From positions 124,001 to 188,000 of the forward strand of contig CALDTY010000003.1 of assembly GCA_937923605.1 (NCBI GenBank): a stretch of DNA of 64,000 nt, written 5' to 3'. The position numbers and the translations under genes were made by a program. The DNA is from Candidatus Absconditabacterales bacterium. Lineage in GTDB: Bacteria; Patescibacteriota; Gracilibacteria; Absconditabacterales; Absconditicoccaceae. Positions within the stretch are counted from its first letter, which is position 1. The number at the start of each line of letters is the position of its first letter. Positions 3,119 to 63,371 of the stretch are shown piece after piece. Under the pieces are notes generated by a model. It saw only the letters and a list, made by a program, of their open reading frames with translations. It did no database searches and was not told the DNA's origin.

Positions 3119-3961
3119 ATGAAAACAAAAATGAATATATTTACTGTACTGTGACGCGAATTACTTATGTTTATATGAGTAATTGCTGCAGTTTGCATAC
3201 TTTGAGTAAGTACAATGTACTATAAAGCTATTTTTATAGCTGCAAAAGATATTATATCACCAATATCAAAAACTCAAAACATAGAAACAAGTTCCTTCGA
3301 AATGCCTAATCTTGAACAAGATATATTGCTGGCAAATGCTGAAGTTGATGAATTACTTTCTGAAATAAAGTATCGTTGATCTCAATCAAATCATCCTAGC
3401 TCAATTCAAGATTATATGGACTCAAAATTAAATGATTATGAATTTTCATTTAATGATTTGCCACCTTGAAGAAGGATTCTGATACATTCTATTGAAGTTG
3501 ATGCTCCTATTGTTGATGTTCCTTATGCAAGTGATGATAAGTTGCAAAATGGAGACTTTGACCAAGAATTAAGAGAATGAGTAGTTAAATACCCATTTAC
3601 TGCAGAGCCTTGAGATAAATGAAATTCTCTTATTTTTTGACATTCAAGTGTGACAGCATGGGAGGACGCCCAGAATCCTTTTTGATACGTCTTTTATAAA
3701 CTCCAAGACTTAGAAGCTTGAGAAAAGTTTGATGTGATATGGGATGGACAATTGTACTCATATCAAATACACGACAAAGTCATTAAGTTACCTAAAGATG
3801 TTGGTGCAGAAATAGAAAAATATGATCAAGCATGAGAAAAATTTTTAACATTAATGGCTTGTTACCCTAGATTGACAGACGCAAAAAGAATTTTGGTAAG
3901 AGCTAAGCAAATCAATAAACACAAAAATCATTATGGAAATATTTTAGCTATGAATAATTAG
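3119..3961 (+). CDS. Sortase family transpeptidase
   Basis: Class D/E-like sortase of 280 residues that would attach proteins to cell wall or link pilin subunits at the outer membrane face. One N-terminal membrane helix (about residues 12-34) anchors it. The catalytic residues are visible: histidine at 175 in FGHSSVT, cysteine at 248 in TLMACYP (the TLxTC-type motif), and arginine at about 257 or 261 in DAKRILVRA. Preceding PGDKGNSLIFGHS and later KLQDL..GE are typical sortase segments. Many glycines are TGA. The next gene, a wall protein, starts 30 bases later. No obvious LPXTG substrate is seen in the window. Confidence 0.88.
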
Positions 3962-3990
3962 GATATTTTTAAGTATTTTGGAATAAAGGC

Positions 3991-5844
3991 ATGAAAAAAA
4001 GTGTTTTAATAATAGCTTTAATAATATTGTTTCCTGCATTTGTGATTGGTCAAAATGAATTTTCTGAGTTTCAAATTTTCAAAGAAGATATTATAAACGA
4101 AGTATATGAAAATGATGAGTATACTCCGTTGATGGACATGAACCAAGCAAAAAAGGATTTAGCGCAATTAACTAGATCCTATGATGATTTGGTGAGTTCA
4201 GTTAAAGTTCTTCAATCTAGAAAATCATCTATGTCAAAGCATTATAATAATGCAAGAGTGTCAGCTCATGCTACACTTCAAGACATGGTTGAAACTCAAG
4301 AGGCATTAACTAAAAGACAAACCCAAGTAACTCTTTCGTTGAATAAAGTGCGTGAATTAGAAGATGATATTGAGCTTCTTTCTCAAGACATAGAAATTTC
4401 TAAAAAACATATTTGAACGTATTCAAAATTTTTATTTAAAACATTAAACGATTTCTATCTAAGTTCTGACGAATTAAGTAGTTTAAAGGTATTAACAAAA
4501 TCAGAAAGTGTCGCTCATACGTTGGGATCAGAGGATATAAGTTCTCTTTTATATCAATGATTAGAAAAGACATTTTTAAAGATGAAACAGTTAACTAATC
4601 AATACGATCAAACTTTACATGAAATACAATCATCAATTGCTAATTATCATTTTGAAATAGAAAATTATCAGAAAGATCTAAATAATCTTAAACAACAAAG
4701 TGATCATGTTGAGCAATTATTAAGTTTTTTAGAAGAGGATAAAAACTTTTTGGAAGATCAGATAGATAATTTTGAGAAATCTGAAAAAAACTTACAGTAC
4801 CAGATTGATCGTATGGATAAAATCACAAGTGAAACAACAAAGTTTTTAGATGAAAACAAAGAAGTAGCAAATTTATTATCAAAAGACGACAAACAAAATT
4901 GATCTGATTATTTTTCTCGACCCATACGTATTCCTGAATTACCAAAATATTCTTTAAAAGACGCTCTTTATGAAAATACTCAATGACTAGTTCTTCCAAC
5001 TGAACAATGACAAGAGATATATGCTCCAGCGCCATGAATTGTTTATAAAGTGCAAGCTGTAGCTGATGTTTGATTAAATCGAGTGATCCTGCTTCACAAA
5101 TATTGATATACTTCTGTTATTCTGCCGCTTTCAGATGTTTTCGTTAGAACAGGAGATGTTGTTAAAAGGTGAGAAATTATATGACGTGCATGAGGTAAAC
5201 CATGAACAATTGGTGCTTGATTAGACAGTTCTGAATCACATTTATATTTTGAGATATTAAAAAATAGTGATTCAATAGATCCACTTTTAGTTATGGATTT
5301 GAGTGTTTTTCAATCAATTGACGATTTACAAGAGAGATATCATCTAAAATGGAAACAAGATTTTATTGCTAGAAATATAGATTTATCCAATTTGCCAAAA
5401 TTGCAATGAGATTCAGTTCAAGAAAGAAGGGATTATTTTTTGAGTAGAAGTTGAAATTCTATATTTTCAGATCCTTGATTATGGGTAAACGCTTCTAAGT
5501 GAACTGGAATTGATCCAATGTTTTGAATTTGTATTGGCGCAGCTGAAACAAGTTACAAAAATTTTAAGTCATGAAATAATATTGGAAATGTTTGAAATGA
5601 TGATAGTGGGAATACGATAGTTTACAATTCACCTCTGTCGTGAGTAGCAGCTATTTTTAAAACGCTCTCTAATCAATATCTAGGTGGATATATGACTATG
5701 GATCAGCTTTCAAGATACGGTAACAAAGATTCATACATCTATGCTTCTGATCCCATTAATCGACAAAAGAACATCATGAGATGTTTATCAATGATATATG
5801 AAGTGAATGTAACAGAAGAATATTTCTATAGAGTATTAAATTAA
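3991..5844 (+). CDS. Coiled-coil LytM (M23)-like protein with C-terminal lysozyme-like domain
   Basis: Secreted 617-residue envelope protein. A signal peptide (MKKSVLIIALIILFPAFVIG) is followed by a long coiled coil (about residues 45-305), a LytM/M23-type beta domain (about 335-450, with GDVVKRGEIIGRAGG) and a C-terminal domain with GAAETSYKNFKSGNNIGNVGND and YLGGYMTMDQLSRYG, which resembles glucosaminidase or transglycosylase-like lysozyme folds. The order coiled coil then LytM recalls EnvC. The LytM zinc ligands look lost: the usual HLH is HLYFE and the expected first histidine is absent. So the LytM part probably binds rather than cuts, while the C-terminal glutamate could be catalytic. 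It follows the sortase gene. Confidence 0.75.
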
Positions 5845-5974
5845 TTGTCATAAGTATATTTCAACTTGTCAACTAAATAATGATATACTGCTTAATAATT
5901 TGACAAAAAACCACCTATTCACTAGAATTATATTGTTCAACGATTGTTGTTTATTTTATTCTCTATATAGAAAC

Positions 5975-6415
5975 ATGTTGAAGAAATTGTTTATGTGACT
6001 TGCTGTGTCAGTATTCACATTAGGAACTATCTGAATAGGTTCGTCTCAATTCGTAAGAGGTACAAACAGTATTCTGGATCCAGTAGGTGATACAGGAGAA
6101 ACTGAAAATCTTGAACTTATTGGTGCTGGTTCAGGACAATGAGACTCGTTTGCAAATGTTGTAAGAGGTTTCATTAACTGGACGCTAGGTATTCTAGCAC
6201 TTATTGCTCTTATTATCTTGCTACGAGGTGGTTTCCAAATGGTTACTGCAGCAGGTGATGAAGAAAAGTACAAGAAATGATTTACTATTTTGAAGCAAGC
6301 TGCGTTATGATTAGCAATGATCGGTGTAGCATGGTTTATTATTAGTCTTATCTTCTTCGTGATTAATATTGCAGGTAGAGGAGGTGAAAACACTTCTGGA
6401 TCTACAGCTGGATAA
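5975..6415 (+). CDS. VirB2/TrbC-like pilin 1
   Basis: 146-residue membrane pilin-like protein. A signal-type helix (residues 5-24) is followed by a short acidic loop and two long hydrophobic helices (about 72-93 and 107-133) around the cytoplasmic loop GDEEKYKKGFTILKQA. This arrangement, with FINWTLGILALIALI and GGFQMVTAAG, is that of VirB2/TrbC pilins of type IV secretion systems, which assemble into conjugative or DNA-transfer pili. First of three paralogues in the block. It shares a stretch of identical DNA with the second copy. Confidence 0.75.
6173..6207 (+). repeat. 35-bp exact direct repeat shared with pilin 2
   Basis: Identical to 6704-6738, including synonymous positions, and encodes the INWTLGILALIA segment of both pilins. 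The flanking codons differ freely, so the identity suggests recent local gene conversion or duplication. Confidence 0.85.
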
Positions 6416-21424: not shown

Positions 21425-22330
21425 CTATGTAGTTAGAGCTTTTACTTCATCATATGTCTTAGCAGATAATTTATCTGATGGGATATTTACTGTCCCGACG
21501 ATCATATTATCACTTTTAAGTTCATTAATATACTCTAGAAGATCTTGACTAATTCTTTCCGGAGAACTTATTCTTAGTATGATAAATTCTCTTTTGCTAT
21601 TAATCTTCCAGTAATCTAATTTAATTTCCCTTTCTCCACTAAGTTTAACTTCATATCTATCTTTTTCAATGATGGTGCAATTTGGAGTTAATGCTTTCCA
21701 AATTTCTTCACTTTGATATGGTTCAAGAGATAGTGATTCAAAAACATCTAAACTACCATCTTCTCCACGTTTTCCTATTATTGATAGATTATGATTTTCT
21801 AATTGAAACTTTATTTTGTATTCGTTCGTACCTTTCTCTAGTAAGTAAGCTTGTTTTATAAGTAATTCTTTTAGATTAGCTTCCATAAAACGATTCGTAT
21901 ACCTTCTTACCATATCTAGTGATTTATCTTTATAAATAAGATAATTCTCTTCCTTAGTATTTATTCTAGCTTCATTTTTTGATTTTAACTGCAAGCTTTC
22001 TTTTGCTCGATTAAAATACTTATTAATGAGGAAGTATGTTATGAGAAGATAGCCACCCCAGTTTAGGATGATTCCAAAAATTGTATATAGATATCCTAGA
22101 TTTGAATTTGGAGTATATTCTCCTTCTCCAATTCCAGTCATCATATTTAATACATAATAGATTGCCTCATAAACACTTACATAATAATCTGTAGTTAAAG
22201 CGTTTAGATACAATAAAACTATTATAAATAATATTTGAAGAGCACTGATAAGAACAAATTTCTGTTCTCTAAATAAAACTAATGCTACCTCAAGTACAAT
22301 CCCAAATTGTGATTGTTTCTTACGCTTCAT
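21425..22330 (-). CDS. Two-TM potassium-channel-like protein
   Basis: 301-residue protein. Residues 26-46 and about 78-102 form two membrane helices around a pore segment YEAIYYVLNMMTGIGEGEYTP, which aligns with the K+ channel filter TVGYGD but reads TGIGEGE. The remaining 190 residues are a soluble, charged cytoplasmic domain not recognised. Known Ion_trans_2 channels conduct K+; selectivity is uncertain with this filter. The gene has no TGA codons although glycine is common, and lies after an NhaB-type antiporter that shares this trait, so both were probably acquired together as an ion-homeostasis pair. Confidence 0.65.
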   Translation of the reverse strand: MKRKKQSQFGIVLEVALVLFREQKFVLISALQILFIIVLLYLNALTTDYYVSVYEAIYYVLNMMTGIGEGEYTPNSNLGYLYTIFGIILNWGGYLLITYFLINKYFNRAKESLQLKSKNEARINTKEENYLIYKDKSLDMVRRYTNRFMEANLKELLIKQAYLLEKGTNEYKIKFQLENHNLSIIGKRGEDGSLDVFESLSLEPYQSEEIWKALTPNCTIIEKDRYEVKLSGEREIKLDYWKINSKREFIILRISSPERISQDLLEYINELKSDNMIVGTVNIPSDKLSAKTYDEVKALTT

Positions 22331-22356
22331 AGATGTTAAATTTTGTTAGTAATAAG

Positions 22357-22392
22357 GCCACCAAAGTAGTGTTTGAATTCTACTTCGGTGGC
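22357..22392. repeat. 13-bp inverted repeat between antiporter and channel
   Basis: GCCACCAAAGTAG and CTACTTCGGTGGC form a stem with one mismatch and a ten-base loop. There is no T run on either side, so it is not a standard terminator; it may shape the messenger between the two genes. Confidence 0.6.
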
Positions 22393-22411
22393 AAAAATCT
22401 TACGCTATGAT

Positions 22412-24160
22412 CTAGTGATTCAAATCTTGAATATCACTAGAATCATCTGTTTCTTCAGATCCATGAGTACTATGCCCATGAGAATCATCAGATCCATGAG
22501 ACATAGATTCAAGCAGTTTGACTTCAGCCATTACTTTTTCCATAGGAAAAGGCTTATCCTGAATTCTTCCTGTATCATGAACCATTTCAATCCAATATGG
22601 CATACAGTATCGCAACATTGGAATTACTGTAATAGTAAACATAAATGCAAATGGAAGACACATTTTAAGTAACACTTTAGGTGTTAATCCAATTGATTTC
22701 ACAAATGAATTCATAGCCATAAAAAGTAATGGAGCTGAACCTATATAAAGCCATATACTCATTAGTGTGGCTCCACATACTATGCATGCCATAAAAAGTC
22801 GATATAATCTCATTAACTTTATTGGATCATTATCATCAACTGTGATTAAACCCTTTACTACAGCAGAGTTTAATAAGTTCTTAAACAATGTTACCGTGAA
22901 CATATTTTCACTTACTGCTGTCATTCCAGCTGTTGCGACTCCAAATGCAGTAGCTTGAGCAGCAGGATTACCTTCAAATTTTTTAATAGCATATTCTTCA
23001 ACTGGATATTCAAATGTCTTATGTTGCACTAAATTTGCGACTTGTCCAAATAAACAGATCATGATAAATATAACAAATGCCATTATATGTCCAAAATGTT
23101 CACTTAAATACTCATGTTTTTCTGGAGTTACATCAGAATCTGTATCATTATTACCATGCTTATGTTTTACATAATCAGCTCCTTTCATGCACATAACAAA
23201 TACTATAGAAATCAATGCAGCCATATAGATTGTGCCTTCTCCCCACTTGTCTAAAAAAAGCATGACAATAAATCCAACAAATGAAATTCCTTCTATAAGT
23301 ACTGTGTACTTATATCTTGATGTCCACTTTTCTTCTTTGACAGTTTTTTTTAGATTATCCCAAATATATTTTGGCATTTTAGTGCCGTATCCAAATTTTT
23401 GAAATTTTTGACAATATGCTAGTGTACCTAATCCCACAACTAATGTGGTTAAAAATACAGGTAAACATAGCCAGAAAAATTCCCAAAACTCTAGTAGAGC
23501 AGCTAGTGCAGCGATTGGATTATAAGGTTCTGCAGGAATTAAAAGTATTCCAAATATAGTTGCTCCAATACCAGTAGACATTAAATTTGATCTAAGATTA
23601 GCTTCAACTTTAGTGAAATCTTCTTTGGAAACATCCATTTTCAATATTTTACTTCTAATCCCCTTTGCAACAATGATGCCAATTGCAATTACAGTCACAG
23701 CGTCTGCGAATGCTGATATTCCTCCATTAAGTAAACACATAGATAAGCCAACAACTACTGTTCCAGAACTTAATAATAATACTCTTATAAAAAATTCTGT
23801 TATAACTTTTTCGAGCATCATCATAAAGGGTACCACAGTCATAAGCATGAATATAGCAGTTTTTGCATTTACTATTTCATGATTGATTATCTCTGGATTT
23901 ACAAAGCCAAGGAGAATCATTTCTACGACCAAAATTCCCGTTGTTAAACTTGGTAATGCTTTTTCAGTTAAGATAAGCAATACAACAAAGGTTACTAGAA
24001 ATAGTAAAGAGAAAAACACCTCTGGTAGCATGAATCTCAAGGGAACATTTAATACTACCATGAGCATTAAAAATTTCCTTACTCTATGATCCGTTTCTTC
24101 ACCAGCAAAGACATTTTTGAATTCCCCAAACATTTCTTTGCCAAAGTTTAGTATATTCAT
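22412..24160 (-). CDS. nhaB: NhaB-family Na+/H+ antiporter
   Basis: 582-residue membrane transporter, about 12 helices. Segments match NhaB in order: VEMILLGFVNPEIINHEIV, a membrane block ending LLLSSGTVVVGLSMCLLNGG, then ISAFADAVTVIAIGIIVAKG, NLRSNLMSTGIGATIFGILLIPAEPYN in place of the HAGVGTALGG..GEPQN region, FGYGTKMPKYI, and SENMFTVTLF for SDNVFVGTIY. NhaB exchanges sodium for protons across the membrane. The carboxy end is histidine- and acid-rich (SHGSDDSHGHSTHGSEE), perhaps a metal- or pH-sensing tail. I count 37 glycines, none TGA, in a genome where more than half usually are; a recent import is likely. Stop is TAG. Confidence 0.75.
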   Translation of the reverse strand: MNILNFGKEMFGEFKNVFAGEETDHRVRKFLMLMVVLNVPLRFMLPEVFFSLLFLVTFVVLLILTEKALPSLTTGILVVEMILLGFVNPEIINHEIVNAKTAIFMLMTVVPFMMMLEKVITEFFIRVLLLSSGTVVVGLSMCLLNGGISAFADAVTVIAIGIIVAKGIRSKILKMDVSKEDFTKVEANLRSNLMSTGIGATIFGILLIPAEPYNPIAALAALLEFWEFFWLCLPVFLTTLVVGLGTLAYCQKFQKFGYGTKMPKYIWDNLKKTVKEEKWTSRYKYTVLIEGISFVGFIVMLFLDKWGEGTIYMAALISIVFVMCMKGADYVKHKHGNNDTDSDVTPEKHEYLSEHFGHIMAFVIFIMICLFGQVANLVQHKTFEYPVEEYAIKKFEGNPAAQATAFGVATAGMTAVSENMFTVTLFKNLLNSAVVKGLITVDDNDPIKLMRLYRLFMACIVCGATLMSIWLYIGSAPLLFMAMNSFVKSIGLTPKVLLKMCLPFAFMFTITVIPMLRYCMPYWIEMVHDTGRIQDKPFPMEKVMAEVKLLESMSHGSDDSHGHSTHGSEETDDSSDIQDLNH

Positions 24161-26695: not shown

Positions 26696-29600
26696 ATGAA
26701 AACTCTCCAATGGTGTCAGTATAAAATTCAAGAAACTGTGAAGATCAATCCTTCGCTAGAGTATAATTTGTCATTGTTAACTAGAGAAGCGTTTTGAATT
26801 GATAAGGCAGAATGTCTAACCATTATGGATCCATTAACGATCCAAACGTTTTTGTTATCAGGAAAACAAGTACCAATGCCTGATGAACTAAATCCTGATT
26901 TAGTTCATAACGTTTGAGATAACGAACAAGAAGCACAACCCCAAGAAGATGATATTGCGTCTTCACTTCAAACAACTTTAAGTGAATGATTATGAGATAT
27001 AGGAACACAAGCAGTTTGATATATTAAACAGTTTTGAATTATTCTTTGATTGCTTATTCTTTGATTGATTATTTGGAAGTTAATTAAGTATGTCTTTGAA
27101 TTTGTCTATGATGTATTTAATGCAAAAAGAATGATTTTTATGAAGATTATATTGCCAAGATGAGATAGTAAATCTGATCGTGAAGTGCAAAAGGAGTTAG
27201 CAAAAGATATGAAGGAAAAGATATGACGTATGTCCCAGGTGTACAAGAGTATGCATAAACTATGAGAGTTATGATTTGCTGAATGAATGATGGATTTTAT
27301 TTTTAATAAGCCAAAGTTTACCTTGTCGTTGGTATATGAAAAATGACTAATTTCTTTTGTTGTGTGAACCTATCCTGAATATAAAAAGATTTTAGAATGA
27401 TCTATTTCTGCTCAGTATTCAAATGTTTCTATGGAACAGGTGCCTCCTCCAAATTTTAAAAGAAAAAAGTATCGAGATATCTTGGCAGTCGAACCAAAGA
27501 AAAATCCAATGTATCCTATTCGTATTTTCAAACAACTCGAGGATGATCCTTTAAATAATATTGTAGACTCTATAGCTAAGGTGAGCCCAAGTGATAATGT
27601 ATATATTTTGTGGAATTGTAAACCAATTTGAAATCGATTTAATAAAGGTGCAAAAAAACGAGCAACTTGATTATATAGGAATGATAAAACGTTTGTGAAG
27701 CCAGATCCATTACGAAAAAGAGTTCTTATGTGACCCATAAGGATGATAAGATTTCTGTCTGGGACGGGTTGAGAAAAAAACCAGAGTGAAACAGCGTTGA
27801 AAACCTGATGACAAAATATGGTGCGTATGCTAAAATCTCAAGAAGATTCTATTAACACAATGTGAGAAGAGGCTGCAACTCAAGCATTTCAATCATCGTT
27901 CCTTTTAGTGTCATGTTCTGATGAGAGAGGTAATGCAGAAGAGAATGTTCTAAATATGTTTGCAAGTACAAGTGTATATACTGATGAATATAATAATGAA
28001 TTTGATAAGTCTGATTTAAAGGCAGATATCCTAGAGTTTATGTTTAAGCCATTATGGATGTTCGCGGCTAAATTTTCTCTACCAAATTTCTTTTTTAAGA
28101 GAAATATATTTTCTGCAAATGAATTAACTACAGTGTTTCATTTGCCAGATAGTATGTTTAATCGTTCTCCAATCATTAGATGGATGGACTATAAAATGCT
28201 TGCTGCACCTGATAATGCTCCCACACTTAAGGATGAAAATCCTGATTTTGCCATATCCTGAATTATTGCTGAAGATTATAAGGGAGGTAATATGAACAAA
28301 ATCTTGGAAGAAGTTAAACATCCTTCAGTAGTGAAATATGATAAACCAATAAAGACAAAAGAGAAGGTTGATAGTAACTATGTTCCAATTGAATGAGAAG
28401 AGATTGTAACTAATGATGACTGAGATACATTTGTTGTACGTTCTACACCAGATAAAAGATTTGCACTCAAGACGTATAAAGATGGAATATTGTTATGAGT
28501 AAATGTGCATAGAAATAAGTATACACCTATATATATGAAAAGAGATGATCGTACTAGGCATCATTATATTATTGGTAAGTCTGGTACAGGTAAATCGGTT
28601 TATATATCATCACTAGCTAGACAAGATATCTGGAATGGAGACGGGGTATGTGTGATCGATCCTCATGGAGATTTAGTAGAAGAAATTCTAGAGTATATTC
28701 CAAAACATAGAGCAAAAGATGTTATATATTTTGATGCAGGAAATGAGGAACGTCCGATGTGACTAAATCTTTTCCAAATTAAACATATTGCTGAGGCAGA
28801 TAGAGCAGTCAATGATGCAGTAGAAATGTTTGTAAAGATGTTTGGACCTGAGATATTTGGACCACGTATTCAAGAATACTTTAAGTATGGATCATTAACC
28901 TTACTTGAAGATATGGAAGAATGAGCTACATTGATTGATGTGCCAAGATTATTTACAGATGAAGCGTATAGGGCTTATAAAACATGAAGAGTAAAAAATC
29001 CTGTCGTTCGTAACTTCCGAGATAAAACATATAACGCTATGGGGGATAGAGAGAAACAAGAGATTATTCCATATTTTACATCTAAGTTTGTGTCATTTAT
29101 TACAAATTCACTTATTAGAAATATTATTGGTCAGACGAAGTCATGATTTGATTTTGAGGATGTGATGAATAATCAAAAAATTCTATTGATCAATTTATCG
29201 AAAGGTAAAATTGGTCAATTGAATGCTCAGTTGTTATGAATGATTATGGTATCTAAAATCTATAATGGAGCTATGGCGAGAGCTAAAATTGAAAAGAAAG
29301 ATCGTAAAGATTTTTACCTATATGTAGATGAATTCCAAAATTTTGTTACAGACACTTTTGCAGATATTTTATCTGAAGCAAGAAAATATAGATTGAACTT
29401 AATTATGGCTCATCAGTTTATTGCACAACTTGATAGTAATGCATGATCAAATATTTGAGAAGGGAAGAGTAAGGTGAAAGATGCAGTGTTTGGTAATGTG
29501 TGAACAATGCAGTCATTTAAGGTCGGTGCGCCTGATGCAGAATTTTTGGAAAAGGAGTATCAGCCTGTGTTAAGTGCTCAGGATATACTTGGTATTTCAA

Positions 29601-29896
29601 ATTATAAAGCATATATAAAATTGAATATTAATAACTCAACTACCAGGCCTTTTTCTATGAATTCTATTTTTACACAAGAATATAGAAACAAAAAAGTTCG
29701 TGATATTCTTAAAGAGTATAGTGCAAAGAAGTATGGTCGTAAAAAAGAATTTGTAGATACAGAAATCGCGGCTAGAATTTGAATAGCGGAAGAAGATCCT
29801 CCAGTTGAGGCGCAAGGAGAAGAAATGATAGAGACGTGAGAGCCTGAAAATATTACAACTTGATGAGATCAGTCAGATAATCCAGATAGTTGATAA
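26696..29896 (+). CDS. Type IV secretion coupling-type ATPase (TraD/VirD4-like)
   Basis: 1066-residue membrane ATPase of the TraG/VirD4 and DUF87 type typical of candidate-phyla type IV systems. An N-terminal soluble region leads to a membrane segment (about residues 105-135), a long alpha/beta region, and the motor domain with Walker A GKSGTGKS at 627-634 (HHYIIGKSGTGKS) and IDPHGDLVEEI. Walker B is YVDEFQNF with the acidic pair at 878-879, then LIMAHQFIAQLD. The tail is acidic. It would pump DNA or protein through an envelope channel; the three VirB2-like pilins at 5975-8484 are plausible partners. The frame uses TGA throughout. The 274 bases before it hold no gene I can support. Confidence 0.85.
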
Positions 29897-34793: not shown

Positions 34794-37223
34794 ATGCTGA
34801 ATTTTTGAATTCTTGGTATGAATGCTAGGAACTTGCAATATATAAAGAAGTTTAATCCTCAAAAATCAATTCGTTTGGCAAACGATAAATTTAAGTCTAA
34901 GAAATTTTTAAATGAAAGATGAATTCCAGTACCTAAAACTTTTGACCTAATCACAAATCGTTCAGATTTGTATACCTATGATTTTAAATCACTTGGAGTA
35001 GAGGAACTAATTGCGAAACCTTGTAACTGAAGTAGATGAAGAGGAATATACCGCATAAAACCAATTGAAACTCCTGAAGATGCGCATCTTTTATGAGACG
35101 ATTCTATGTTTGATCTTTTTTTTAACCAACAATCGCTTTATAAAGATCAATGGTATAAAGTAGGTTCAGAAGTAATTCCTGACCAAACATTAAGAAGATA
35201 TCTGGTAGATGTATTGGATGGGAAAAACTCAATGTGACGGTGATGAGATAATATTTTACTAGAAGAACTCATAGTTCCTGGATCATGATTTGAGCCATTT
35301 TGCACCGAATGATTAGCAGACATAAGGGTTATTGTTTTTAACTTAATCCCTGTCGCAGCAATGCTTCGTGTTCCAACAGTTGAATCTGATTGAAAAGCTA
35401 ATTTAGATAGATGATGAATTTGATTATGAATTAATGTAAGTACATGAAAAGTTCGTTCAATGTTTCAGAATTGAACAATATATAAGAAAGATTTCCCATC
35501 AGAATATGAAAAAATGGAGGGTAAAAAGATATCGTATTGGAATGATATTTTATCTTATTCCTCTAAAGTTCAGTACTTTACTAATTTATGATATTTAGCT
35601 TTAGATTGGGTCATCACTGAAGAATGACCAAAATTACTCGAGATCAATGCTAGAGCCTGATTGAAATTTCAACTTGCAGCAATCTTGCCACTTAGAAGAA
35701 GACTAGATAAAATCAAAGATATGAAAGTAAATGATCCTGAGAAATGAGTAGAAATAGCCAAGACTTTATTTACTGAAGATAAAGGGCAACTCATATCTGC
35801 ATCAAAAGTTATTTATTTATCACAACATTGAAAACTTAAAAAGGAAACTCAAGAAGGAAAAAAAATCACTATGGATGTTATAGTAGATGTAGATATCAAA
35901 AGACAAAGAACCACAATATGAAATCAAGTTAGAGATTTTCTATGAGATGAAATTGTTTCGTTTTCATTGGAATTGCAAGACAGTCATATTACATTTCATG
36001 ATTTTTCATTTAAAGGATCCAAGAAAACTGAAGATAACACCATTATTTTAGGTAGAGATCTTGCTCAAGAGTATTATTTGAAGCCAATTAAGAAAATATT
36101 CACTTCTCAGCATGTTATATCTAATAAGAATGTTATTGAACATGAATTGGACAAGTTACATATACTTGATGAAAATTTGTTCAAGCTAAGTAAGTTGTTA
36201 AATCTTTCAAGAATATTAAAACCAACAAATTACTTGGAAGAGTTAGATAATTTTATTACATGGAACGGTCATTATAACCCTAAATTTACATACAATCGAC
36301 CTAGTGATAAGAAACTGCATTCTATCTATCAACAAATAAATCGCTTAAAAGAAAAGTATTTTGATTATTCAAGTTGAATGAAAAGTCCTTTTTCAATTAT
36401 ATTTTTAAATAAAGCTAATGAACTACTCAAGAAACACGCATTATTGGTGGCGTATAAGAAACAAAAATATTCTGAAATACTAGAATCAAATAAAGCTCTT
36501 TTTTGACCAATTGATCCAGAATTAATTAAAGAATCAAAACGAATGATTTTTGATCACGAGAATGATGACCATCAACTGTGAAGAAAACTACAAAGTTTAG
36601 AAATTAGAGAATATATACTGTCATATTTGACTCAACAATGATTTCATTGAGTCCATGTTTATTTTGATTCAAATACTACTTCTAGACTTACAGTGGCAAG
36701 AAGTGCCAAAAAAATAAATATTAAAATTATGCAATGATTGATTATTAGAGAAAAGGACCTACAAGCGACGTTAGCTCATGAGGTTGATGTACATGTGAGA
36801 AGATATATGAATTGATCAAAAACCTGACGACATATTCTACGTCAATGAACAGCACATTTTATTTCAGATGAAGAAGGTCTGGCGGTTACTGAAAGCCTAA
36901 AATACCTTCCAGAATGATACGAAAGGAAATGAAGATTTTTAAGATATTACTATTTGTCTTTAGTTGCGAACAAAGATTTTGCAGGAATCGCTTCAATTAT
37001 CATGTGACTTAGAAATGTAACCTTAAGAACAGCGTTTTCTGATGTGCTGAGAGTGAAAAAATGAATTCAGAATACTTGATTTATTGATGAATGAGCAGTG
37101 TATTATAAGGATAAAGTATATTTAGATGGACAGAAGAAAATCCAAAAGTGGATAGATGCTTGATGAGATACAGAGGATTTGATGGTAGGGAAAATAACTA
37201 TTCAAGATTTAGAGATTGTTTAA
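34794..37223 (+). CDS. Fusion of ATP-grasp alpha-L-glutamate ligase-like domain and MATCAP/DUF1704 metallopeptidase
   Basis: 809-residue two-domain protein. Residues 1-330 are an ATP-grasp ligase of the RimK-related alpha-L-glutamate ligase-like family: GILGMNARNLQYIKKFNP, LIAKPCNGSRGRGIYRI for the nucleotide loop, and LLEINARAGLKFQLA for the magnesium-binding end. The C-terminal part (about 480-800) is a DUF1704/MATCAP-type peptidase: zinc motif HEVDVH (H662, E663, H667; HExxxH as in tubulin carboxypeptidases) and the QEGLA-like motif DEEGLAVTE at 692-700. A linker domain joins them. Ligase adds, peptidase removes; target unknown. Followed by two more metallopeptidase-like genes. Confidence 0.78.
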
Positions 37224-37228
37224 ATATA

Positions 37229-37256
37229 TTGACAAATAAGTAATTTTATATATAAC
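37229..37256 (+). promoter_or_regulatory. Promoter, TTGACA-N16-TATAAC
   Basis: Near-consensus hexamers with 16-base spacing, about 40 bases ahead of the gene at 37295, giving the second peptidase its own start site. Confidence 0.6.
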
Positions 37257-37294
37257 TAATTATACTAAGTTTTATATATCTATATTTTTTGTCT

Positions 37295-38881
37295 ATGTCT
37301 TCAGAAATCACATGAGTTAATGAATCAAATAAGTTTGAGCTTCCTGTTGTAAATCAGGAATTCGCTGAGTTGTTAGTTGAGTTAGTAGAATGATTTGCAT
37401 GACCATTGGATGGTGAAATCTCATATACTAAAGCGGATGATAATTGACATAGAAGAGCAATTGATTTTTTTGGAAAACAGAGTTTTGATTGATCTAACAA
37501 AATCTGACTAAAAGATATACAATCTTTTAGAAATAGAGTATTTTCAAAACTCACTAAAATTGAAGAAATGAAAAGCTTCATGAATTCACATTTTGAATGA
37601 GCTCTTTTGAAAATTTATACTGATGCAGTTGGAGAGTTTGAACTTAAATTCAAAATGTTTAACCATGCTGTATGGTTAGAAGCACAGAAATGATGATATA
37701 ATTTATCAGATATAGAACGTGATTCTCATTTGAAAGAAGTAAGAAGTTTAATGACTCCAATTTGGGGTGAATCAATACTATCATCTCAAGAAAGAGTGGT
37801 ATGAGCTTATGAAGATATTTATGATGCATTTCATAGAAATTCAAATAACCTCACTGATAAGGAAAAAGAAGTATTAGTAGAATTCTTTGAGTTGTTAGAG
37901 ACACAACACTGAATCGATACATTCCAATATAAGCTTGATAAAGCAGTTGTTGAAACACTGACTTGAACAAAGCAGAACAGTATTTTTGAAAAAGCGTTAG
38001 ATTCTTCTTATCAATGTGCATTATTTTCTTGAATTGTTGATTTAGAACAGAAATTGAATGCTGAAAGAGGAGCTATTTGATGATGAAATCGACAAATAAT
38101 TTCAAGAGAAGGAAAATGAAGTTACGCAGTTTCTCATCAAAAAGAAGTAGGTTATGCTCCCTGAGTATGAGAAAGAATAGTTAAACAGTTAATTCCAACA
38201 CAAGGTCATGAGACTAAGCATGTAAGAAGTTGAAAAAATACGAATGCAATCTTTTGAAAATGATTTAAAACTAGATGATATCTTTGAACTGAAGAAGCAG
38301 TAGCAACTTCTGAAGAATGAATAACGAAATGAGTTGTTCAGAAAATAGAAGATTTGGATAAACTTAGAAAAAAATCAGATGAAAAAACTAGAGCATTAGT
38401 TGTTTGTGAGCATTATGGATTTGATGAATCAGTGAAGTTGATTGAAATTTTTGTTAAGCTTTGATTACATGAAATTGGATCAGTAAAGACAAATCCAGAA
38501 GCAAGAGTGCTGAGATCAAAAAGAATGTGACCGTTGGATATTCCATATGCAAGCACGAAAGATAGAGCATATTTAGATGGACTTGATGATGTTATACTCT
38601 ATCTAAAAGAAGCTAAAAGTATGGAAGAAATGTTTTCTAGGTTGCAAACTCTTCATCAATTTAAGGCATGAATTAAGGATTTAGAGAATATTGAAAAAAT
38701 AAAAGAAGAGCTATGAATTGAAGACAATTTACTGCATATGAATTATTTTTTGACAAGACGTTTGTGGCGTGCGTTGGAATGATTGGACGAAAATGATGTG
38801 CAAAAATGATCACTTGATGAACAAATCTATAAAATCAAAGTTGATATTAGTCAATTACTTGATATAGTGCAGTCTGTTTAA
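37295..38881 (+). CDS. Putative HExxH metallopeptidase related to MATCAP/DUF1704
   Basis: 528-residue soluble protein, mostly helical. A zinc-type motif occurs at 305-309, GHETKH followed by VRSGKNTN, and 24 residues later a candidate third ligand in LGTEEAVATSEEG (E333 or E334), recalling the DUF1704 order HExx(x)H...EEGLA. The first 280 residues and the last 150 are charged helices not recognised. The spacing and the VRS..N signature resemble the C-terminal domain of the preceding protein, so I infer relationship rather than show it. TGA glyc­ines are abundant, including a GGG run (TGA x3). Confidence 0.55.
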
Positions 38882-38902
38882 CTTACTGTATTATAAGAGA
38901 TT

Positions 38903-40015
38903 ATGGCGATTTGACTAAACTATAGTTATCATAATTTTGATAATTGAGCAAAATTACTTCCACAATATGTATTCCTCCTGGACCATGATGACACAATTAC
39001 AAAGTTTGATCATGATCATATTTTGGAACACGTCAATGATGGCAAGTTAGAAATGATGTTAGCAGCGACATCTAGTGATGTGTATTTTGAGGATTCACTA
39101 TTGAGGAAGATAAACTTGGAAGCTTTTCCATATCAGATGCAATTAAAGTTTGCACAGATGGACATTCAAAATGATGTCTCAAGAAATAAAAGAATTATTG
39201 AGTTATTCAATACTTTTTTTGATATAGATTATGAGAACGTGTTGGATACTTATTGCAAAGAATGTAATAGAGAAGTGGCAAAAAAGACTTATCTAGCTCA
39301 CGATAAGTGAAGATATAATGATATTTTTAAAGCTGCAGGATTATTTACTTGATTTGTATTAACGTTGTTGCAAGAAAAGTGATATACCAAAGAAGCAACA
39401 GCATTTCAGCGTTTCTTGCATACAGATTTATCTCTGACTCATATTCCTTGAATATCAGGAAATACAAAATATGACGGAAATAAAGTTATTGTTGAAGTAT
39501 GAAATAATACATATACGACACTTTTTCATGAACTAACTCATGCAATTAATAGATTTTTTAGAGTGCAATATTATAAAGACGATGTTATTTGCTATGATAA
39601 TTTGACGAAGACTAACGAATGATTAGCAAATTTTGTCGCATACCATCTTTTGGATGCATTTGTCTCAGAAGATGTTGATGCAATAAATGAGATTAGTCTT
39701 TCTCCAGTGTTCTTTTCTATGTACATTGATATTTATGCAACAACTCGTGAATTTTGATCACATGATAGAAAACATAATTTTGACCTTATTTATCAGGAAT
39801 TACAAAAATTTGAAGGCGATTTACTTACAGATCAGAAAGCTTCATTTTATTATGAACGCTTTTATAAGTTTTTTCACTATGATCAGCATATGTATTTCTA
39901 CCCAAAGGAAGTCATGTATTATCTTTGATATCATGGAATTTTAGATCTGTTTAATTCATCACAAGATAAATGAGATTTACTAATCCAATGTTTACTATCT
40001 AAGGTGTGTTTATAG
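38903..40015 (+). CDS. Putative gluzincin-type metallopeptidase (HExxH...NEGLA)
   Basis: 370-residue soluble protein. The zinc-binding HELTH motif is at 209-213 (TTLFHELTHAINRFF) and a glutamate-bearing motif NEGLANFVAYHLLDAF at 238-253, the HExxH-then-E arrangement of gluzincins and the EGLA wording of DUF1704. The N-terminal half is unrecognised and contains CKECNREV. It starts 21 bases after the second peptidase and its stop is one base ahead of ung, so it belongs to the same transcript. Substrate unknown. Confidence 0.6.
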
Positions 40016-40769: not shown

Positions 40770-41633
40770 ATGTTATCACTTGTTAAGAAGATTTGTTCAG
40801 TTCTCATGATTCTCTGATTTTACGTTGTAGGAATATTTTTGCATGCTTATAATCCTACATTAGATGAGAAAAGTTTGATTGTAAATATACAAGGGAAGAT
40901 AGATGAATTAGCAGTTCAAGATTTGACGTCAATTGAACCCCTTTATGATAGGGTAGTTGCGGTTCGTAAATCTAAAGAGATGTCATCAGATTATCCTGAA
41001 CGAAAAATGTATATCTTGCAACAGTTAGAAATATATATTTATGATAGTTATCTACAATTAAATGAACAGAAAATTGATTTAGAATCAGATTATTCAATTT
41101 TAAAATATGTAGATCAAGATATTGCTTTTACTAACAAATATTATATCCCTGCTGACTTAACAATGTTATTTCCTACTGAAACTCTAATTTTGTCTACTAG
41201 TGATGATTTGTCTTATATGATGATTCGTGAAACAGTTTTACCGTGGTTACAAGAATTAGCATTCGCATTTGAAAAAAAGTTTTGAACGCCAATGAAAATA
41301 AACAGTGCTTGGAGATCGTTTGAATTTCAAAGAGATTGATTTACCCAAGAATGCAGAGATAGTTGATTATGCGCAAAACCAGGACATTCGGAACATCAAT
41401 CATGATTATGTGTAGATATAAGCTGAATGTTTTGAGATCAGTATATGTGGATGAAAGAACAAGCTCACCTGTACTGATTCCATCAATCTTATCAAAAATG
41501 AGCTGAGATAGATTGATACCCAGAAGAGAAGCGACATTGGAGGTATCTTTGAGTCGAACTAGCAACTGAATTGTACGAATCCTGATTAACGTTTACTGAA
41601 TGGTTTAAGATAAATAAAGACTTAATTGACTAA
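40770..41633 (+). CDS. D-alanyl-D-alanine carboxypeptidase, VanY (M15B) family
   Basis: 287-residue exported zinc peptidase trimming peptidoglycan stem peptides. Signal or anchor helix at residues 8-25; the VanY domain occupies the C-terminal half: INSAWRSFEFQRDGF, GHSEHQSGLCVDISG (zinc His and Asp) and EKRHWRYLGVELA (third ligand H in HWRY). A cysteine pair at CRDSGLC may form a disulfide. Belongs with the sortase, PBP and LytM-like proteins as wall machinery. Confidence 0.88.
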
Positions 41634-57334: not shown

Positions 57335-57958
57335 ATGAGTTCAATAATGATCCCAACAAATGGGTACGTAGTTACAAAAACATTGAAACAATTTGGAACA
57401 AAAACATTCCAAGAATTAGAACGTTTCTTGAACGAAAAGTTGACCACCATTGCTGCTGGGCTTGGTGGAGAGTTAGATTCTTCATTCTCTGATCATCTAG
57501 AAAGACAAGGAGCATGTGTTAGAATCATTAATTTGGATGATCCAGGTGTAGAGTATCATGCTCCATTTGGTGTTATTAATACTCAGATGCGACTAAATGA
57601 GACAATGCATAATTCGCATGAAAAAAGTGTAAGATTAAGGTCAGATTATGAGAGTGATTCCATATTTACTTGCTCTGGATGGACAGCTAAACCTGATTTA
57701 GAAGAAAAATCACAGAGAACATATCAAGGCTCAGTTTTATTCTCTGCTGATGTTAGTTATATTATATCAATATCTGGATATGCTGCAGAACTTGATGCAC
57801 TTCTTTGTCTGCTGATTGCGGAATTCTTAGGACTAATTGAATCTGCAACATCTCAAGCAGCTAAAACATTGGTGTATTATCCAAAGATGCCTAAAAATAA
57901 GTATCTCCTTGCATATGAAGCAAAAAGAGAATTGATAAGAAATGCTAATGCTAACTAA
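57335..57958 (+). CDS. Orphan protein without TGA codons
   Basis: 207 residues, not recognised. No signal peptide. A middle part with RRIINLDDPGVEYHAPFG-like sequence (VRIINLDDPGVEYHAPFG) and a helical, hydrophobic stretch AAELDALLCLLIAEFLGLIE near 150-170. All of about twelve glycines are GGN; neighbours use TGA freely. It has its own promoter and terminator, so it stands as a single imported unit. Confidence 0.6.
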   Translation: MSSIMIPTNGYVVTKTLKQFGTKTFQELERFLNEKLTTIAAGLGGELDSSFSDHLERQGACVRIINLDDPGVEYHAPFGVINTQMRLNETMHNSHEKSVRLRSDYESDSIFTCSGWTAKPDLEEKSQRTYQGSVLFSADVSYIISISGYAAELDALLCLLIAEFLGLIESATSQAAKTLVYYPKMPKNKYLLAYEAKRELIRNANAN

Positions 57959-61747: not shown

Positions 61748-62647
61748 TTACAATTCAGGACAGCCAATGATGTCTTTGTTGGACTGTACGCTTAACAGAG
61801 GGATATTATTTCCTGCACCAAGGTTGTTAGATGCTAAAGTAATTATATTAGATCCATTAAGCTTTAGTGGATTTTTATATACCGTCATTCCTTTTCTCAT
61901 TTTTAATGTCGTAATGCTAATTGCTTTGAATCCTTTGTGATTCATGTTAAATACATTTTCTTGTTTAGCTTCACTCACATATGCTTTACCTATATTCATT
62001 CTGACAACAAGGTCAGATATGTCAGGCTTATGATGAATCGATACAGATGGAATAATGACAGCGTCATATCCCATTTCAAGAGTTGAACTATTAATTTCAT
62101 TTGGTCTTCTCATGATATCGAGAGATTTTTTATAAAGTTCAAATCCTTCATAATACTCATCAACTGGAGTGATAATTACTCTATACATGCCACCAGTAGA
62201 AAAGACACTTACAGAATTCGTTGATGCATGATGTACCATATCATTAAAAGCAATGCCACTATCTTCGCCATGATCATGTCCTTCAATATCAACTAAATTT
62301 GTTTTCTGTGCTTTTCTATCATATTCTCTCAGAATGTTAAACAAACCAACGACTCCAAAGTCAGGAGGTGTTATTTTGTTAAATTCAAGTGTACCTTCAT
62401 TTTCTTTGATAAAGGCATTTAGTTTATGGTGGTCTTGACCTGCCATACATTTTACACTTGGATCTCTTAGTAAGATAGGTATCTGAGATACATTTCTCTT
62501 GTAGTGCTGAATTACTTCTCTTTGTATATTAGTTCCTCCAAGTAAAGGGTTAGTCAATTGTTGAAAGTCTAATGCCTTATGTATCGCTAGAAAAATAGTT
62601 GCTATCGATATACTATTTGATGGTTTATTGAATACTTCGTGATTCAT
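61748..62647 (-). CDS. Unknown protein of imported operon
   Basis: 299 residues, soluble. Histidine-rich middle part (VDIEGHDHGEDSG, DMVHHASTNS, VSIHHKPDISD) could bind metal. I do not recognise a family. About twenty glycines, none TGA. Starts ten bases after the cyclase gene, so the two work together. Confidence 0.6.
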   Translation of the reverse strand: MNHEVFNKPSNSISIATIFLAIHKALDFQQLTNPLLGGTNIQREVIQHYKRNVSQIPILLRDPSVKCMAGQDHHKLNAFIKENEGTLEFNKITPPDFGVVGLFNILREYDRKAQKTNLVDIEGHDHGEDSGIAFNDMVHHASTNSVSVFSTGGMYRVIITPVDEYYEGFELYKKSLDIMRRPNEINSSTLEMGYDAVIIPSVSIHHKPDISDLVVRMNIGKAYVSEAKQENVFNMNHKGFKAISITTLKMRKGMTVYKNPLKLNGSNIITLASNNLGAGNNIPLLSVQSNKDIIGCPEL

Positions 62648-62657
62648 ATGTTGATTT

Positions 62658-63371
62658 TTATAATTTGAAATTTTTTATTAATTTGATTGTTGATGGGACG
62701 GCATCCATTTTTGGATAAGCTGATGGGGTGATATTTATTTTGTAGCTTCCATCTTGTATTTTCATTGGAATATATACTAACTCAGTAATGGTGTTTTCAT
62801 ATCTCCAATGATTATTATAAAAAAATGCTTTATGTGCCATCATGAGTCCAGCTGAATTTTCTCTTTCTACACTTGGTAAATCAGTTACAAAATGATTTAC
62901 TTTATTTCCTATCCATTTCATAGCTTCATTGCTAAAATAAATTGGATTAGTATTAGAAAAAGAATCAATTTTCTTGTTTAATGCTCGAACAACTAAACAG
63001 TCTACATCTTTTAATTGTTCTTCATTTACTACATCTAGTAGATTTTCAAGTGTAATAACCGAGTCAATTTCGCCGTCAATATTACTACTAATTTTAGTGT
63101 TTTTAACAGTAGTTAGAAGACTATTCATCAAAAAAGGCATTTTAATGTTATGAATATATGGGCCATCGTTTACAACATGTCTACAAGATTCGGTATGAGT
63201 TGTAATGCCATGAACCATTACACCATCAATAATGTAATTGTTAAATGACTTTCCTGCTTTGATTGAAGTTTCACCATATCCTTCGATATTCATCGGATAG
63301 GTTTTGTAAAGTTCTAAACCACCGTAAGCATCGACGGTTCCCACAGCTCGTGTAATGTTAAAGATTTCCAT
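62658..63371 (-). CDS. Cyclase family (kynurenine-formamidase-like) hydrolase
   Basis: 237 residues of the PF04199-type cyclase family. GITTHTESCRHVV takes the place of the HxGTHxDxPxH metal motif, DVDCLVVRALN and NPIYFSNEAMKWIGNK the middle, DLPSVERENSAG, MAHKAFF and TITELVYIPMKIQDGSYKINI the end; the last blocks closely match family members common in Bacteroidota. In the metal motif the GTH is TES, so the ligands are partly changed. About 13 glycines, none TGA; TAA stop. First gene of a three-gene operon, likely imported. Confidence 0.7.
   Translation of the reverse strand: MEIFNITRAVGTVDAYGGLELYKTYPMNIEGYGETSIKAGKSFNNYIIDGVMVHGITTHTESCRHVVNDGPYIHNIKMPFLMNSLLTTVKNTKISSNIDGEIDSVITLENLLDVVNEEQLKDVDCLVVRALNKKIDSFSNTNPIYFSNEAMKWIGNKVNHFVTDLPSVERENSAGLMMAHKAFFYNNHWRYENTITELVYIPMKIQDGSYKINITPSAYPKMDAVPSTIKLIKNFKL

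Follow-up and report, generated by a model that had tools for sequence, protein, structure and literature searches.

The 64,000-nucleotide stretch analysed here, referred to as the window, spans positions 124,001 to 188,000 of contig CALDTY010000003.1 from the assembly GCA_937923605.1, a draft genome (83.5% complete) of the Absconditabacterales, whose members are tiny and probably symbiotic bacteria. Three genes of the window, which are arranged head to tail with gaps of 65 and 21 bases, constitute the locus under study: a fusion of an ATP-grasp ligase to a MATCAP-type (DUF1704) peptidase, a standalone relative of this peptidase and a further putative zinc peptidase. Ligases of this type are known from the rloABC operon of Pseudomonas aeruginosa, which encodes the secreted retropepsin RloA, the inactive transglutaminase-7TM protein RloB and the ATP-grasp protein RloC (PMC12239564). 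We are confident that the fusion represents an Rlo-like ligase with a swapped eraser, and we consider it somewhat better than an even chance (about 0.55) that it acts on the Glu-Glu tail at the C-terminus of a partner protein with seven transmembrane helices (7-TM protein).

Genes and domains of the locus

All three open reading frames (ORFs) require genetic code 25, in which TGA encodes glycine. A reading with table 11 breaks them into fragments and was rejected, while with table 25 long ORFs fill the region. Under this code, the three ORFs described in an earlier note on this DNA were confirmed, as were the motifs located there, namely HEVDVH and DEEGLA in protein 1 and HExxH in proteins 2 and 3.

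Protein 1 (34794..37223, plus strand) comprises 809 residues, contains 41 in-frame TGA codons and was characterized by its matches to PF14397 and PF08014 and by an AlphaFold2 (AF2) model. It had been described as an ATP-grasp ligase joined to a MATCAP/DUF1704 domain. Both parts were borne out by Pfam and by structure, while a third domain lying between them had been overlooked; the protein is a fusion of three rather than two domains, namely an ATP-grasp ligase of the RimK/RloC type, the relic of a retropepsin and a MATCAP peptidase. The ligase domain (residues 12-308; 34827..35717, plus strand) matches PF14397 at 4.5e-45 and features the invariant residues K75, E157, D271, E283 and N285. The MATCAP domain (residues 487-808; 36252..37217, plus strand) matches PF08014 at 1.9e-17, with a score of 63.8 bits compared to the curated Pfam cut-off of 27, and a search with the family profile retrieved human KIAA0895L/MATCAP from the PDB at E 6e-33. 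Its zinc motif HEVDVH, an instance of HExxxH, is located at residues 662-667 (36777..36794, plus strand), and the EEGLA stretch (36870..36884, plus strand) within DEEGLA at residues 692-697 is predicted to supply the expected third zinc ligand. Across 34 diverse homologues, down to 27% identity, the residues of the ligase and of the zinc site (H662, E663, H667, E694, G695 and A697) are all invariant, and the zinc site composed of HExxxH and EEG is present in protein 1 and 33 homologues. The AF2 model (predicted local distance difference test, pLDDT, 85.6) matches human MATCAP (7z5g) at E 1.2e-10 with a probability of 1.00 as well as RimK at 3e-8 to 6e-8, including the RimK-RpsF structure 5zk6 at E 5.7e-8. 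The NCBIfam matches of protein 1 are significant but far below the curated cut-offs (177 of 314.2 bits for TIGR02291; 69.6 of 338.65 bits for TIGR02421), and its ligase is a relative, not an equivalog, of TIGR02291. When named organisms were scanned with the fusion, one contig was retrieved, from Candidatus Absconditabacterales, the closest relative bearing a name.

The middle domain (approximately residues 316-433; 35739..36092, plus strand) corresponds to a retropepsin of the RimB/RloA type (PF05618), as revealed by aligning it with its DTG-bearing counterpart in unfused homologues (hhalign 98.9%, E 2.4e-17), some of which match PF05618 above its cut-off. In protein 1 the catalytic DTG has been replaced (IVDVDIKRQ). 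No secretion signal is apparent in the fusion, as assessed without running a dedicated predictor.

Regarding the remaining two genes, the earlier note had envisaged three adjacent peptidases of like signature, which holds for proteins 1 and 2 in terms of homology and only weakly for protein 3; moreover, the putative zinc motif of proteins 2 and 3 is HExxH, which lacks one residue compared to the HExxxH typical of MATCAP. Protein 2 (37289..38881, plus strand) comprises 530 residues from a TTG start, with an alternative ATG start at 37295. Its HETKH motif, read directly from the DNA, is found at residues 307-311 (305-309 from the ATG; 38207..38221, plus strand) and is followed 24 residues later by TEEA. 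PF08014 alone yields 12.1 bits, below the cut-off of 27, but profile-profile comparison with the MATCAP domain of the fusion is significant (hhalign 99.1%, E 7e-19), and iterated profiles also merge protein 2 with MATCAP domains. Protein 2 is a standalone MATCAP paralogue whose motif has lost one residue: HExxxH is in register in 16 of the 17 rows of its alignment, and the copy of the window is the shorter one. In many genomes of the family, homologues of protein 2 reside close to the fusion, directly adjoining it in genomes G002 and G012, and the conservation of the gene neighbourhood in relatives, on which the earlier proposal had been made to depend, was thereby found.

Protein 3 (38903..40015, plus strand; 370 residues) is known from two genomes of a single genus only, with the same gene order in both. 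Its HELTH motif (residues 209-213; 39527..39541, plus strand) and NEGLA (residues 238-242; 39614..39628, plus strand) are retained as HExxH and NEGL in the sole homologue at 56% identity; protein 3 is a probable zinc peptidase. PF08014 did not match it, hhalign to MATCAP gave 0.2-0.8%, and the PDB contained no significant sequence match. On the other hand, it scores 16.3 bits against a combined MATCAP profile, a weak signal close to the KxxxYxxGY region at the C-terminus, and was matched at 7.7e-5 in a set of 690 proteins. The structural comparison, which succeeded for protein 1, placed MATCAP at the top of the Foldseek matches of protein 3 with a non-significant E of 0.11, obtained with a low-confidence AF2 model (pLDDT 50). 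Kinship of protein 3 to MATCAP is thus suggested by the weak profile match, the order of the motifs and the non-significant structure match.

Membrane partner, erasers and genomic surroundings

A 7-TM protein of the RloB-like family PF14402, which was missing from the earlier picture of the locus, emerged as a better-supported target of the fusion. Among 41 loci sampled for their neighbourhood, 20 contain a PF14402 gene, which mostly adjoins the fusion or a protein-2 homologue, in families using the standard code as well. Among 118 genomes of the class, 75 of the 82 that encode the fusion possess it, compared to 1 of the 36 that do not (Fisher p 8e-22, not corrected for relatedness). The genome of the window possesses one copy, ending in ...IKNYFEEE. 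No transglutaminase domain was detected by Pfam on the 7-TM proteins, which display PF14402 alone or together with PKD or Y_Y_Y. A search of plasmids returned two gammaproteobacterial RloB relatives and one match confined to PKD, and a search of viral contigs returned no match. In complete loci across the phylum the gene is nearly always followed by an RloC-like ligase. PF14402 itself, the RloB-type 7-TM domain, occurs in 99 of 333 genomes of the phylum, although the Rlo study assigned 96% of RloB matches to Proteobacteria (PMC12239564). Seven loci (L086, L087, L090, L091, L092, L098 and L100) contain additional ATP-grasp ligases, RimK-like and others, along with GNAT, Mur-ligase-like and SIMPL proteins in the vicinity of the fusion and of the standalone MATCAP gene, as if these loci were part of a larger peptide-making cluster.

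The C-terminus of the 7-TM protein is constrained: 67 of 74 class members end exactly in Glu-Glu, aspartate never occurs at either position, and the last two residues have an entropy of 0.5 bit as opposed to 2.5-3.75 over residues -3 to -20. Such an end is found in approximately 6 of 660 background proteins once the 7-TM copies are discounted, and the spacing between the last helix and the Glu-Glu end is variable. The two gammaproteobacterial RloB proteins, which belong to a system with a separate RloA-type peptidase, are devoid of the tail. Given the number of helices and the signal-like N-terminus, the C-terminus is predicted to lie on the cytoplasmic side, separated from the outer domain by seven passes through the membrane.

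The presence of this tail correlates with the state of the eraser. When the retropepsin is scored as intact by the presence of D[TS]G at the active site, 54 of 57 complete unfused ligases retain the motif, and the three that have lost it (NTG, NTG and NTS) are each directly adjoined by a MATCAP gene and accompanied by a 7-TM protein ending in Glu-Glu. Operons with separate genes (L218, L284 and L285) exist beside the fused form, and in L285 the MATCAP gene overlaps the DTG-less ligase by four bases. Among the fused proteins, D[TS]G has been lost from 68 of 71, the further match in L085 lying elsewhere in the protein. The Glu-Glu end occurs in 79 of 87 cases where the retropepsin is lost or MATCAP is fused, compared to 1 of 54 where the retropepsin is intact. 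In fresh genomes, taken after this rule had been recognized, the tail was present in 12 of 12 cases (all 10 class members and the two new DTG-less cases that are unfused) as opposed to 0 of 24 with an intact motif. Where MATCAP genes reside near DTG-intact ligases (L203, L205, L206 and L286), the Glu-Glu tail is absent. PF05618 was found in none of the 118 class genomes, a model which recognizes even the intact domains of this phylum weakly. Taken together, the sequences are consistent with an apparent replacement of an aspartic by a zinc peptidase, retropepsin by MATCAP, within the same ligase system.

Two further kinds of arrangement were encountered among these loci. At L237:5208-7392, a 7-TM protein ending in EEEEEEEREEE neighbours a ligase whose retropepsin retains an intact DTGE, with a MATCAP gene in the vicinity, possibly an intermediate state. 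RloC-retropepsin proteins with about 400 extra C-terminal residues are encoded at L221:2408-5173 (921 residues) and L222:3218-5782 (854 residues).

In the surroundings of the locus, a VanY-type D-Ala-D-Ala carboxypeptidase is encoded at 40770-41633, two genes downstream of protein 3, and the order UDG-VanY is retained in G002. A sortase, an M23 peptidase and a pilin-like gene of a type IV secretion system follow one another at 3119-6412, and a protein of 1066 residues with a HerA/TrwB-type ATPase domain is located at 26696-29896, upstream of gyrB. Long ORFs at 21425-24160 (minus strand), 57335-57958 (plus strand) and 61748-63371 (minus strand) contain no in-frame TGA, while their neighbours contain many; one example is an NhaB-type antiporter at 22412-24160, and the stretch at 20-24 kb displays a reversed GC skew. 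This suggests a recent arrival from a donor with the standard code or, for the unannotated ones, chance ORFs.

Proposed mechanism and its alternatives

Human TMCP1/MATCAP acts on tubulin tails at a site beside Glu-Glu at the C-terminus, and the opposing enzyme, tubulin tyrosine ligase (TTL), which performs the addition, is ATP-grasp-like. In bacteria, RimK extends the encoded C-terminus of ribosomal protein S6 with glutamate residues, which are removed again by RimB (PMC11957791). Pseudomonas cells lacking RloA erasers are sick, and are wholly or partly rescued when rloB or rloC is deleted (PMC12239564), as expected if the ligase and the membrane protein together make a product that needs erasure. 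These facts are most simply combined by assuming a ligase-peptidase that would make the Glu-Glu end of the 7-TM protein longer and shorter. In this proposal, the fusion would act in the cytoplasm as the enzyme of a writer-eraser system resembling Rlo, the general logic of which had been put forward in the earlier note and is supported here. As the writer, the ATP-grasp half would extend a C-terminal carboxylate by at least one amino acid, most likely glutamate, and as the eraser, the MATCAP half would take the added residues off again, while the middle domain would be the leftover of an earlier retropepsin eraser that was superseded by MATCAP. The most likely substrate would be the Glu-Glu tail of the 7-TM partner, whose state may tune envelope or osmotic functions in a manner resembling that of the rlo genes in Pseudomonas. 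Proteins 2 and 3 could provide additional trimming peptidases of the same locus.

Several observations weigh against this reading. In the genome of the window, the 7-TM gene is unlinked to the fusion, being located on another contig. Seven genomes with the fusion are without a PF14402 match, at least one of which (G037) has a copy below the threshold. A clade of four fused genomes (G005, G010, G011 and G015) as well as G013 lack the Glu-Glu tail and nevertheless retain the catalytic residues; a short acidic tail could also be a docking site. In addition, D[TS]G persists at the retropepsin site in 3 of 71 fused proteins, and the DTG-intact lineage L237 has a poly-Glu tail, too. Finally, the tree yields two clean independent origins of the exchange and an uncertain third, a number with which a sign test cannot reach 0.05.

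The idea of docking can be extended to an alternative in which the Glu-Glu tail only holds the enzyme at the membrane and another protein is modified. The clade that has lost the tail with its enzyme intact would then be accounted for, as would the seven fusion genomes without PF14402; the exact C-terminal register together with the variable spacing to the last helix, however, fits an enzyme acting on a free carboxyl end better, and we regard this alternative as improbable. Somewhat more weight, though still well short of favouring it, is given to a ligase that makes free polyglutamate or a small peptide, which the peptidase trims and the 7-TM protein exports or senses, the Glu-Glu tail serving as a regulatory mimic or docking site. 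Poly-alpha-glutamate peptides made by RimK are the subject of PDB entry 5zct, as indicated by its title, RloA cleaves polyglutamate (PMC12239564), and several further ATP-grasp ligases, GNAT and a Mur-ligase-like gene accompany some related loci, as in small-peptide pathways. Alone, this alternative nevertheless leaves unexplained why the end is Glu and never Asp, and why it is linked to the change of eraser.

FtsZ, S6 or a host protein are very unlikely targets by comparison. They come to mind because MATCAP elsewhere acts on tubulin and RimK on S6, and the S6 proteins of the window genome (...IKQE) and of one relative in the genus do bear an acidic tail that terminates with just one Glu. A Glu-Glu end, however, was found in none of approximately 30 S6 C-termini of the class, some of which were read with uncertainty, and FtsZ of the window genome ends in ...RKKLAS; as the C-terminal tails do not fit, both proteins were rejected as Glu-Glu targets. 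FtsZ, which the earlier note had suggested, is thus hardly suited to a Glu-tail system, and no support was found for the host protein or surface polymer considered alongside it, the lack of an apparent secretion signal in the fusion, as judged without a dedicated predictor, likewise speaking against a host target. The Glu-Glu tail of the 7-TM protein is the favoured substrate. More tentatively, the system might be the bacterial equivalent of the cycle of tubulin tyrosination, with a single chain, holding both the ATP-grasp ligase and the MATCAP eraser, that would attach residues to the Glu-Glu C-terminus of a membrane protein and take them off again.

Relation to known systems

C-terminal poly-alpha-glutamylation in bacteria has so far been described for S6 only (PMC11957791). 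The locus bears on two questions, namely the substrate of the Rlo system (PMC12239564) and the role of MATCAP in organisms without tubulin, for which the comparative pattern puts forward a specific candidate substrate whose end, Glu-Glu, is defined. If the proposal is true, the 7-TM protein would be the second bacterial protein after S6 with reversible addition to its C-terminal tail, and a function of MATCAP peptidases in the absence of tubulin would be revealed. A fusion of RloC, relic retropepsin and MATCAP with a Glu-Glu-ended partner was not found in the literature searched, though the gene association is possibly contained in the 2009 amidoligase survey (Iyer et al.).

Like rloABC, the system comprises an RloC-type ligase (PF14397), which in relatives is linked with a 7-TM protein of the PF14402 family as well as with a peptidase suitable for ends rich in Glu. 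Unlike in rloABC, this peptidase is a MATCAP enzyme fused to the ligase and presumably cytosolic, while the retropepsin is a relic and no PF05618 match was found in the 118 class genomes; the 7-TM protein also differs from RloB by its PKD-type or unassigned outer domain in place of a detectable transglutaminase and by its Glu-Glu end. With the RimK-RimB pair (RimABK) it shares the combination of an ATP-grasp C-terminal glutamate ligase with a peptidase predicted to remove glutamate, but it is distinguished by its membrane-protein partner, by a zinc instead of an aspartic peptidase and, in the S6 proteins read, by the lack of a Glu-Glu end. The families TIGR02421 ('QEGLA') and TIGR02291 ('alpha-L-glutamate ligase-like') cover the same domains, which are modelled there as separate proteins. 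Human MATCAP/TMCP1 (KIAA0895L, 7z5g), in turn, is likewise a zinc peptidase with HExxxH and EEG that is opposed by an ATP-grasp-like adding enzyme, whereas the protein described here is bacterial, would unite the predicted adding and removing activities in one chain and would operate without tubulin.

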